Source of the DNA: Geoglobus sp.
Lineage (GTDB): Archaea; Halobacteriota; Archaeoglobi; Archaeoglobales; Archaeoglobaceae
DNA: 19,603 nucleotides
Assembly (NCBI GenBank): GCA_027019885.1
Contig: JALUWC010000014.1
Location: forward strand, 1-19,603
Direction of reading: 5' to 3'
Shown: one piece after another, positions 1-19,603 of the stretch
Numbering within the stretch: the first letter of the stretch is position 1
Layout: the number at the start of each line of letters is the position of its first letter
Notes under the pieces: model-generated
The model's database searches: none
The model's input: the letters and a program-made list of their open reading frames with translations, nothing else
What the model was told of the DNA's origin: nothing
Translations under genes and position numbers: made by a program

Positions 1-55
1 TCTCTCTCCACCTTTCAAAAATCTACTGGCTTATGCATATGTCCTTACCCACCAT
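1..55 (-). pseudogene. Relic N-terminus of a related integrase (flanking older element)
   Basis: Read on the minus strand from 55, this begins ATG GTG GGT AAG GA and closely follows the first codons of the intact integrase that starts at 19296 (ATG GTG GCT AAG GA). Similarity continues with small gaps: CATAAGC and TTTTTGA-AGG blocks are shared. The relic hits an in-frame TAG at its 11th codon, so it is dead. It lies just outside the left attachment repeat, with the same spacing to att as the live integrase has at the right end. I infer the decayed right end of an older related element in the same tRNA site; the rest lies beyond the window. Confidence 0.7.
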
Positions 56-112
56 GTTAGACCTCCTTTTCCTCAAAGCTCCTAAAACCCAGGGCTTAAG
101 CGGTGGGTAAGG
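43..112. repeat. Inverted repeat between relic integrase start and attL
   Basis: CCTTACCCACC (43-53) and GGTGGGTAAGG (102-112) are perfect 11-bp inverted repeats separated by 48 nt. One arm covers codons 1-4 of the relic integrase, the other abuts the attachment core. The same arrangement, with a compensatory change, is present at 19283-19357. Confidence 0.8.
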
Positions 113-114
113 CA

Positions 115-127
115 AGCCGAGGGAGGG
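115..127. repeat. attL: copy of the tRNA-Cys 3' end
   Basis: AGCCGAGGGAGGG is an exact direct repeat of 19359-19371, the discriminator base, acceptor strand and part of the T-stem of tRNA-Cys. The match extends leftward with two mismatches to 20 bp (108-127 versus 19352-19371). It marks the left boundary of the integrated element. Confidence 0.88.
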
Positions 128-190
128 CAACCTTAAACCACGTCCGATTCCTCCAAAATTCTATAAGCCTCCTACTATATAAGCATAACT

Positions 191-9971: not shown

Positions 9972-9997
9972 TGCGCAAACGGTAATACTTTTGCGCA
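9972..9997. promoter_or_regulatory. Palindromic site A upstream of the RHH/wHTH gene
   Basis: TGCGCAAA (9972-9979) and TTTGCGCA (9990-9997) are perfect arms around a 10-nt spacer holding GTAATAC. On the minus strand it reads as the same element as sites B and C. It lies 15 bases upstream of the ATG at 9957. Confidence 0.7.
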
Positions 9998-10026
9998 CGA
10001 CGCTTCTTCAAAGTAGATACTTTTTT

Positions 10027-10040
10027 GTTGAAATTTCAAC
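10027..10040. repeat. Perfect 14-bp palindrome GTTGAAATTTCAAC
   Basis: GTTGAAATTTCAAC is fully self-complementary and lies in the noncoding stretch between sites A and B. A related GAAATTTC occurs at 10050-10057. It may belong to the same regulatory or origin region. Confidence 0.5.
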
Positions 10041-10090
10041 CGCTTTTTAGAAATTTCTTCTCTTCTCATAACTAACCCAACTCTTCTTCT

Positions 10091-10118
10091 TTGCACGAAA
10101 GTATTACCTTTCGTGCAA
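10091..10118. promoter_or_regulatory. Palindromic site B
   Basis: TTGCACGAAAG (10091-10101) and CTTTCGTGCAA (10108-10118) are perfect 11-bp arms around TATTAC. It shares the AAAGTATTACC core with sites A (reversed) and C, but its arms differ from site A at matching positions on both sides. Confidence 0.75.
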
Positions 10119-10122
10119 GTGA

Positions 10123-10320
10123 TTACTGATGATCTTTATAAACTTGCGCAAAAGTATTACCTTTCATGCTATTAGCTCGATTTTTTAAATTATAAGTTTC
10201 ATTGATCACCTTGACCGCATGCTTGGCACAGAGGAAGGCCCCACCGTTAAACCCGCGCCTGGCTGGATATACCAGGAAATCAGCTACATCCTCGCAGTAA
10301 TCGCATTTTGCCACTACCAT
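10123..10320 (-). CDS. Small zinc-finger protein, unknown
   Basis: 65 residues. CDYC near the start and CAKH about 25 residues later make a C2-CH zinc site (MVVAKCDYCEDVADFLVYPA, later FLCAKHAVKVI). The ATG at 10320 overlaps the stop of the preceding 56-residue gene. The last third is coded by palindromic site C (10144-10169), so its C-terminal sequence may be constrained by DNA rather than protein function. Function unknown. Confidence 0.6.
   Translation of the reverse strand: MVVAKCDYCEDVADFLVYPARRGFNGGAFLCAKHAVKVINETYNLKNRANSMKGNTFAQVYKDHQ
10144..10169. promoter_or_regulatory. Palindromic site C (inside a coding region)
   Basis: TTGCGCAAAAG (10144-10154), TATTAC, then CTTTCATGC (10161-10169): the third copy of the element, with less perfect arms. 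Its centre lies 53 bp from that of site B, close to five helical turns. Confidence 0.6.
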
Positions 10321-18099: not shown

Positions 18100-19296
18100 T
18101 TAATAAGAAAAAAGCTCCTCGGCGCCTCTGGCTCTGGCAATCTCTATGAACCGCTCTTTGATCCTTGGGTTCTCCTCGGCGATTACTTTAAGGAACTCAA
18201 ATAGGAGGCTGTCCAGCTTGTCCAGGGCAAACACCCTATTACCAAGGGGCAGCCCGCACTTATGGCAGAACTTCGAGGAAGGATCATTTACCTCCTGGCA
18301 GCGTGGGCATTGCTCCACTTTCAGTGCTGGCTCCTGGTTTTTCTTGGCTTCCTTTATGCCGTAGATGCTCAGCACAGAACTATCCACATCTCTACCACTG
18401 AGATGGACGTAGATACTGGGCATCTCTGAATCCTTACCCCAGCCGAAAAACTCCCGCATCTCAGGCTCCTTGAGGTGGCGAGCCATAAAGGTAGCCCTGG
18501 CGTGCCTGAATGCATGGGGATTAACCTTTTTCTTCACGCCAGCCTTCTTTGCCAGCTCTCTGAGGAGCCTGGAAACAAACCCATAGCTCAGGTGCTGGTT
18601 TTTCCACTTGGGATTGTTGGGCGTAGGGACCTTACACCAGAGATAAGCCTCCGGGTTGCCTTTTCCGGGGTGCTCTTCTATCCAGCGCTGCAGGGCGAGG
18701 GTGGAGGCAACCAGGCGGATTCTCCTATCACCGGTCTTTCCGGTAACCCTGAGCACCGCGCCATACTGATCAAAGCTCACATGCTTAAGCTTCAGGGGCA
18801 GAAACTCGCCTATCCTGGCACCGCTCTCATAGAGAGCCAGCACAAAAGCTTTATCCCTGGTTGTATATGCTGCTTCCGCAATCGCTTTGATCTCCTCTTC
18901 GGTAAGCACCTCTTCAGGGAGGGTGCCATTCTTGGGCCTTGCTACCTTTATCCACTCTACCGTTTCACCCTTCCCCAGCCAGCGCATATATTTTCGGAGG
19001 ATTACCTTCTGGTCGTGCTTTGTCCACTCCCTATAATCGCTTCTCTGAAGCCAGGCGGCAAATCGCTTTAAATCCTCAGTTGTAGCCTTGCAAAAAGGCA
19101 TATTCAGGTGTTCTTTAATGCTAACCAAAAGGCTGAGGTATTTACTCACTCTGGAAACGCTGTATCCCTGCGCTAAAAGGTCATTAACAAATCTTTTAAC
19201 ATCCTTCCTATCTTCTGGAAAAAGTTTAGCGATTTGACGCTTTGAATACCTCTCAAAAAGCAAATCTCGCTTATGGATATCCTCCTTAGCCACCAT
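18100..19296 (-). CDS. Tyrosine recombinase (integrase) with C-terminal zinc ribbon
   Basis: 398 residues from ATG 19296; a start at 19314 exists, but the TATA box at 19321-19330 predicts an mRNA beginning near 19299, so 19296 is preferred. The N-terminal SAM-like core-binding half is followed by the catalytic set: Arg161 (ESGARIGEFL), a Lys in TGKTGD (about 187), HAFR (His261-Arg264), and the nucleophile Tyr296 in SIYVHL. CPRC and CHKCG (about 330-348) form a zinc ribbon, common in archaeal integrases of this kind. It lies next to the right att site and is read away from the tRNA, the usual arrangement for insertion into a tRNA 3' end. Confidence 0.93.
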   Translation of the reverse strand: MVAKEDIHKRDLLFERYSKRQIAKLFPEDRKDVKRFVNDLLAQGYSVSRVSKYLSLLVSIKEHLNMPFCKATTEDLKRFAAWLQRSDYREWTKHDQKVILRKYMRWLGKGETVEWIKVARPKNGTLPEEVLTEEEIKAIAEAAYTTRDKAFVLALYESGARIGEFLPLKLKHVSFDQYGAVLRVTGKTGDRRIRLVASTLALQRWIEEHPGKGNPEAYLWCKVPTPNNPKWKNQHLSYGFVSRLLRELAKKAGVKKKVNPHAFRHARATFMARHLKEPEMREFFGWGKDSEMPSIYVHLSGRDVDSSVLSIYGIKEAKKNQEPALKVEQCPRCQEVNDPSSKFCHKCGLPLGNRVFALDKLDSLLFEFLKVIAEENPRIKERFIEIARARGAEELFSY

Positions 19297-19357
19297 GTTA
19301 AATACCTCTCTCAACTTCGCATATTTATAAATTGTAGGAATCAGACGTGGCTAAGGA
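19283..19357. repeat. Inverted repeat linking integrase start and attR
   Basis: TCCTTAGCCAC (19283-19293) and GTGGCTAAGGA (19347-19357) are perfect 11-bp arms 53 nt apart. One arm covers integrase codons 2-5, the other ends one base before the att core. Same layout as 43-112, with a compensatory C/G swap. Confidence 0.8.
19321..19330 (-). promoter_or_regulatory. Integrase TATA box
   Basis: Minus-strand TTATAAATAT centred about 30 nt before ATG 19296, predicting a nearly leaderless integrase mRNA. It lies between the arms of the inverted repeat. Confidence 0.6.
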
Positions 19358-19358
19358 G

Positions 19359-19371
19359 AGCCGAGGGAGGG
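19359..19371. repeat. attR: within tRNA-Cys 3' end
   Basis: AGCCGAGGGAGGG, exact copy of attL (115-127). It covers the discriminator, acceptor 3' strand and part of the T-stem, so the tRNA is left intact at this end. Confidence 0.88.
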
Positions 19372-19430
19372 AATTGAACCCCCGAAAAGCGGATCTGCAG
19401 TCCGCCACGTTACCACTCCGTCACCTCGGC
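19359..19430 (-). tRNA. tRNA-Cys (GCA)
   Basis: 72 nt: acceptor GCCGAGG pairs with the 3' strand CCTCGGC, discriminator U; anticodon stem GCGGA/TCCGC with loop CTGCAGA, anticodon GCA; T-loop TTCAATT. U73 is expected for tRNA-Cys. No CCA is encoded. Its 3' end is the integration target. Upstream 19431-19603 shows no gene. Confidence 0.95.
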
Positions 19431-19603
19431 GTTGCTAAGATAGTGCAAAAATAACAACCTCATATTTGAGAAGAGGATTTCTTGAGTGGCGTTAAGGATT
19501 TTTCTGTTATTTGTTAAATTGAAAATAATCTTTCGAAAACGTTGTGGCTATCGGCCAAATTACCTCAAAAATATAAACTCTCTTTACTGCATTGCTCTCG
19601 CGA

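Follow-up and report, generated by a model that had tools for sequence, protein, structure and literature searches.

An integrated archaeal element was found to carry three copies of a putative recognition site of about 22 bp (about GGCTTnnGACGTGGCTAAGG) at its attachment site. One copy covers the start codon and the codons next to it in the integrase gene (arm2), one adjoins the att core (arm1) and one, inverted, lies across the core from arm1 (P'). We lean slightly towards the reading that the three copies serve the integrase or a partner as arm-type sites, and that the copy at the start codon doubles as an autorepression operator. The sequence supports the three copies, covariation of arm1 with arm2, a codon constraint in the integrase start and a TATA-like box between the arms.

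The window, i.e. the whole stretch of 19,603 nucleotides analysed here, is one whole contig. Its own element is called W in the comparisons. The following features were located:

23..55, minus strand: relic integrase start, MVGKDICISQ followed by a stop at codon 11 (from the translation)
43..53, minus strand: relic inner arm (arm2), GGTGGGTAAGG on the minus strand, CCTTACCCACC on the plus strand (from the sequence)
102..112, plus strand: relic core-proximal arm (arm1), GGTGGGTAAGG (from the sequence)
115..127, no strand assigned: left att core AGCCGAGGGAGGG, identical to the 3' end of tRNA-Cys (from the sequence)
131..151, minus strand: third site (P' arm), GGAATCGGACGTGGTTTAAGG on the minus strand, CCTTAAACCACGTCCGATTCC on the plus strand, immediately within the element, beyond the left core (from the score against background windows)
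18100..19296, minus strand: intact integrase of 398 aa, tyrosine recombinase, XerA-like, with a C-terminal zinc ribbon (from the open reading frame and profiles)
19282..19293, minus strand: live inner arm (arm2), GTGGCTAAGGAG on the minus strand, CTCCTTAGCCAC on the plus strand, in integrase codons 2-5 (from the sequence)
19323..19331, minus strand: TATA box TTTATAAAT predicted for the integrase promoter, located between arm1 and arm2 (from a sequence pattern)
19347..19358, plus strand: live core-proximal arm (arm1), GTGGCTAAGGAG (from the sequence)
19358..19430, minus strand, as the integrase: tRNA-Cys(GCA), the integration target (tRNA call)
19359..19371, no strand assigned: right att core AGCCGAGGGAGGG, 3' end of tRNA-Cys (from the sequence)

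The integrase lies downstream of tRNA-Cys; its ATG is at 19294-19296 of the minus strand and its N-terminus reads MVAKED. It was recognised as a tyrosine recombinase by PF00589 (E 7.8e-21) and also matched the XerA-like profile NF040815, with a score below the cut-off of that profile. In an alignment of 29 homologues R161, H261, R264 and Y296 are invariant, and were assigned by us as the catalytic Arg/His/Arg/Tyr. The zinc ribbon cysteines C330, C333, C344 and C347 (window 18256-18309) are likewise invariant in 29 integrases, and the ribbon is a candidate for extra DNA contacts. In the structure model (mean pLDDT 82.8, pTM 0.61) residues 1-9 are without regular structure and the first helical domain begins at residue 10. 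A separate N-terminal arm-binding domain was not found in this model, which sets the enzyme apart from the heterobivalent lambda type. It also differs from the suicidal integrases of the SSV type, as the 398-aa gene is intact between the two cores. Elsewhere in the element, upstream of a parB-like gene, three palindrome-like repeats of about 26 bp (about TGCGCAAAnGTATTACC) were noticed at window positions 9972-10169; perhaps these are replication or partition sites.

The contig is probably misbinned. Its tRNA-Cys stretch (window 19352-19471) is 96% identical over 120 bases to G073, a genome of the class of Hydrothermarchaeum, whereas the genomes compared from the genus and family of the bin reach 74% over about 70-90 bases, and the contamination of the source bin is 8.75%. 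In G073, TGCCTTATCTAACAC comes after tRNA-Cys; this sequence resembles a decayed form of the relic arm of the window.

The initial annotation had described an 11-bp inverted repeat at both ends, with one arm at the start of the relic or live integrase and the other beside the att core. Both repeats are found in these places. The left one measures 11 bp and the right one is a perfect repeat of 12 bp, i.e. one base longer than described. The live arm2 starts right after the integrase ATG, and the relic arm2 begins in the last base of the relic ATG (53-55). Past the relic stop codon the frame reads IFERW, comparable to IFERW in L165 and IFNRW in L146, and we infer that the left relic is the remnant of an earlier element at the same tRNA-Cys. 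The paired exchange of C for G, encoding Ala or Gly, was also seen as described, in both arms of each end. When the upstream stretch was dinucleotide-shuffled 2000 times, the observed score or exact length was never reached, for the live and the relic junction each, although as homologous junctions the two ends are not independent. A chance repeat was rejected on the basis of these shuffles. In a DNA search of 59 genomes the exact junction was found only in the window itself.

A contig scan of genomes yielded 54 loci. The closest integrases reaching the start region (65-76% identity) belong to Pyrohabitans, Hydrothermarchaeum, Methanoperedens and one unassigned euryarchaeote. Further copies and relics were added from those genomes, from the class of Hydrothermarchaeum and from the order to which a Methanoperedens genome belongs. 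The junction set comprised 17 junctions including the two of the window, and later 19. L064 was used in the 17-element score test and, because its arms are unalignable, is absent from the register counts. L217 and L218, found by a pattern search built from the known sites, were used only in the 18-element register test. With ARAGORN the adjacent tRNA was identified as Cys, Thr, His, Glu or Ser; no tRNA was called by this program beside L144, L153, L165 and L217.

For the 17 elements, own pairs of arm1 and arm2 score 10.6 on average, compared with 7.6 for foreign pairs, and none of 20,000 permutations was as high; kinship among the elements is ignored in this and the other arm permutation tests. 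In a register of 12 columns with 18 elements the key column, which holds the C/G exchange, agrees 18 times out of 18 in three states (C, G and T), with 9.1 agreements expected. Over all columns 171 of 216 cells agree (148.4 expected; 0 of 20,000 permutations). Changes on both sides were counted for the 15 distinct rows of 16 and occur in seven of 12 pairs, against 4.6 for shuffled rows; 23 of 500 shuffles were as high. Doubly changed cells number 17 in these rows, whereas shuffles give 7.0 and none of 500 is as high; in pair counting the true register beats all six slid registers. L146 and L165 are the best case for arm covariation with relatedness taken into account. They are grouped with a support of 94/91, each has a perfect 14-bp repeat, and they differ at three positions, each time in both arms. 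L101/L145 (support 99/95) show the reverse, arm1 having changed alone in L101. Covariation among related junctions, the check proposed in the initial annotation, is thus borne out by the key column and the doubly changed cells, but not by L101.

Related elements with unpaired or independently varying arms had been named in advance as evidence against a selected palindrome, and some were found. Eleven of the 17 elements are strong, being matched by at most one of 2000 shuffles. L064 (94 matching shuffles) is without paired arms; L062 (19), L143 (45), L162 (250) and L170 (491) match weakly, and L101 (77) also belongs to the weak junctions. On this point the junctions speak partly against the earlier proposal.

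The codons under arm2 are constrained. Among long-type integrase starts (MVAK/MVGK), seven were compared, and their arm codons are invariant (Val 7/7, Ala 6/6, Lys 7/7). In the same starts 14 of 17 conserved downstream columns vary, with two or three codons each. With six invariant columns among the 20, all three arm columns would by chance be invariant with a probability of about 0.018, for a test chosen post hoc on related sequences. The stop-bearing L162, with GTA as its Val codon, was left out. Length and sequence of the stretch ahead of the conserved D-I/V/L-H/Y motif change along with the arm. Since residues 1-9 are unstructured in the model, the coding sequence could follow the DNA site there.

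The far end of the element was sought in seven elements and found in five (W, L059, L101, L062 and L142), each with a P' beside the core; for L061 and L143 this search found no far end. The far-end cores differ from the tRNA at 0 (W), 0 (L059), 2 (L101), 1 (L062) and 3 (L142) of 13 positions. For the far-end and TATA analyses of L142, the sequences of L142 and L143 were short by about 1 kb upstream, and the far-end search was unaffected. P' is inverted relative to the core-proximal arm. Scored against the arm1 of its own element, P' reaches 14 in W (0 of 2488 background windows of the element as good), 13 in L059 (0 of 1352), 14 in L101 (0 of 770), 12 in L062 (0 of 366) and 10 at the far end of L142 (2 of 1318). 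The scores of P' lie at 10-14 against the own arm1 and at 7-10 against the own arm2. By these matches, the motif flanks the core of the predicted attP on each side and recurs a third time over the start of the integrase. Among W, L059, L101 and L062 the own arm1 is the best match of P' in W only. Higher scores were obtained for P' of L059 with arm1 of L101, for P' of L101 with arm1 of L144, L145, L153 and L165, and for P' of L062 with arm1 of L060. In three of four cases P' therefore lacks specificity for its own element, which counts against a tight coevolution of P'. At the key column, P' agrees in three of five elements in our alignment (L059, L101 and L142; not W and L062).

The repeats could also be functionless and result from chance, or from shared ancestry with gene conversion between the arms. 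Several copies are relics, related copies share changes, and tree support is poor, with one of 13 inner branches starred. The shuffle controls, the codon constraint and the third copy speak against this explanation, as does the weak pairing of the arms in the stop-bearing L162 and L170. We consider it very improbable.

A TATA-like sequence was detected 28-37 nt before the ATG, between arm1 and arm2, in 15 of the 17 elements. The search was restricted to the region between the arms, starting more than 20 bases from the tRNA, and fallback patterns were used. The match is weak in the relic of the window, and under the same restriction no TATA-like box was found in L153 and L162. From an archaeal promoter with such a TATA box, transcription would start at or just before the ATG. 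The predicted box between the arms would therefore put the beginning of the transcript at arm2 and leave arm1 upstream of it, so that arm1 would be excluded from the mRNA of this promoter. The layout of arm1, TATA box and arm2 fits that of an operator pair. The distance from the tRNA end to the ATG is 56-66 nt in 16 of 17 elements and 80 nt in the pseudogene L162. Because this spacing varies, a fixed helical phasing between the arms is not suggested. An extra palindrome (GCCTTTGGAG/CTCCAAAGGC or similar) was noticed around the integrase TATA-like box of L101, L145, L144 and L153.

Our proposal for the function of the sites is as follows. The integrase, or a partner, would bind arm2, arm1 and the inverted P' as arm-type sites, and the recombination complex would be built on them. 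Binding at arm2 would also shut off transcription of the integrase; repression is to be expected from the position of the predicted promoter between arm1 and arm2, with arm2 at the expected start of transcription. The integrase lineage and its sites would change together, and the first codons of the protein would follow the DNA site. The identity of the binding protein, the assembly of the complex and repression are deduced here from the arrangement of the sites. Arm-type sites, an autoregulatory operator or a looped DNA structure had already been suggested in the initial annotation. Covariation supports a selected palindrome, the third copy beyond the core favours arm-type sites and the predicted TATA box between the arms fits an operator; the weak or unpaired junctions argue partly against the suggestion.

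Compensatory changes would also be expected in a helix of RNA, and such changes are seen in the arms, which could form a helix. In transcripts reading through from the tRNA promoter, arm1 could fold onto arm2 and hide the start codon. No integrase would then be made from read-through in the integrated state, and mRNA from the integrase's own promoter, without arm1, would be translated. Standard pairs including G-U make up 85.0% of the cells (76.2% in shuffles; 0 of 500 as high). Differences between the arms are of the G-U type in 16 cases and of the A-C type in 6, or 11 with the start-codon column (16-element table), but this bias from A to G is partly due to Glu/Asp codons in arm2. The folding z is -2.94, with one of 200 shuffles as stable, and by eye there is no T-run between tRNA and integrase in the window. 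However, 15 of 17 elements have a TATA-like box between their arms, from which the mRNA would start after arm1. In addition, P', on the other side of the core, cannot take part in such pairing within one transcript of the integrated element and is left unexplained. As read-through from the tRNA is needed, P' is not accounted for and the pairing bias stems in part from codons, we regard such an RNA lock as the main alternative, but as unlikely. A combination, in which one sequence would be arm site, operator and coding start and the arms in tRNA read-through RNA would also keep the integrase silent only when integrated, appears rather unlikely to us. If it were true, the N-terminus of a protein would be written by its attachment site.

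Binding of arm-type sites by the integrase has to be weighed against binding by another protein, such as an excisionase, a host bending protein or a repressor of the element, with the integrase lineage tracked only incidentally. The lack of a separate arm-binding domain in the integrase model and the many small open reading frames of the element with unknown function would agree with another protein. However, the sites stay with this integrase across hosts and element sizes, i.e. 19.2 kb in the window, 10.6 kb in L059 and 6.4 kb in L101. We judge this alternative to be improbable.

The wider integrase family was examined with 109 junctions with intact reading frame, of which 93 are non-redundant, and 200 shuffles each. 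Twelve of the 93 junctions reach p≤0.05 and five reach p≤0.005; three of these five are the clade members L059, L060 and L061. For L101 a different repeat was picked in this test. With only these 12 junctions, and with the arm at the start codon mostly absent outside the clade, a feature of the whole integrase family is unsupported. A strict pattern of the long type gave six matches in four of the 23 genomes of the class and none in the reversed control. One match is new, and the other five are junctions used to build the pattern. A looser single-site pattern gave 23 matches in 10 of 23 genomes, compared with seven in the control, and some of these matches are ordinary coding sequence by eye. 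Sites similar to P' adjoin tRNA-like cores in L220, L221, L225, L234 and L237, also by eye; those of L221 and L225 are the sites of L101 and L142. In a viral collection, one protein scan gave no confirmed relative, another gave a single relative with 34% identity, and a pattern scan gave no match.

Some further arrangements were observed. L233, L238 and L240 are lone core-proximal arms beside tRNA-Thr with similar flanks and no integrase start seen nearby; possibly they are scars of departed elements. In L084 and L183 (Methanosarcinales) an unrelated inverted repeat CTTTCACTTC/GAAGTGAAAG lies upstream of the integrase, with one arm just before the ATG. L002, L007, L008 and L067 have a tRNA-like core before the integrase, flanked by an inverted repeat around GGCTCTGT/ACAGAGCC, an arrangement that looks like an unintegrated attP.

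Unlike lambda Int, the integrase of the window is modelled without a separate N-terminal domain, and to our knowledge the start of lambda int is not an arm site. The attP of lambda is described with extra sites beside its 15-bp core, the attB with only two (PMC8371274). Repeated inverted sites flank the core on the element side of the window junction; if bound by the integrase, they would correspond to the extra sites of lambda attP. The enzyme resembles the classical archaeal integrases (XerA, SNJ2, pNOB8) in being XerA-like, in a gene that is intact after integration and in targeting the 3' end of a tRNA (PMC8371274). In this review of archaeal tyrosine recombinases, the terms 'arm-type', 'arm site' and 'arm-binding' are absent and the sole 'arm binding' concerns lambda (PMC8371274). 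Three sites per attP, as seen here, set the window element apart from the classical archaeal integrases as reviewed there. In the 'suicidal' integrases of SSV and pT26-2, attP lies inside int, which is split on integration (PMC6972569; PMC8371274). The tRNA target and the archaeal hosts are shared with the window element. In contrast, int remains intact in the window, where an arm overlaps no more than its first codons.

With regard to regulation, a likeness was found to bacterial systems. The promoter of intS of the Escherichia coli prophage KplE1 overlaps an att region that has arm-type sites of the integrase, and the integrase represses its own gene (PMC2951348). Here, too, the integrase gene lies beside a tRNA, and its predicted promoter would lie amid sites of the att region. 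KplE1 intS is bacterial, with a -10/-35 promoter and the factor TorI (PMC2951348). In contrast, the window element is archaeal, its predicted TATA box lies between two inverted sites, one of them within the integrase start, and repression would follow from this layout. For int of phage P4, integrase binding near the transcription start is reported to give negative regulation, with Vis as a second regulator (PMC2951348). The tyrosine integrase of the window likewise has a site near its predicted transcription start, to which it may bind. Archaeal att sites need nucleotides outside the stretch shared with the tRNA, and the control of archaeal integrase expression is described as largely unexplored (PMC8371274). 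Three copies of the motif around the core, one of them over the integrase start, provide a concrete and testable architecture for both. The arm motif would also serve as a sequence signature by which integrated elements, and the scars they leave, could be found in archaeal genomes without annotation, and the first residues of an enzyme could be dictated by the attachment site that it uses.
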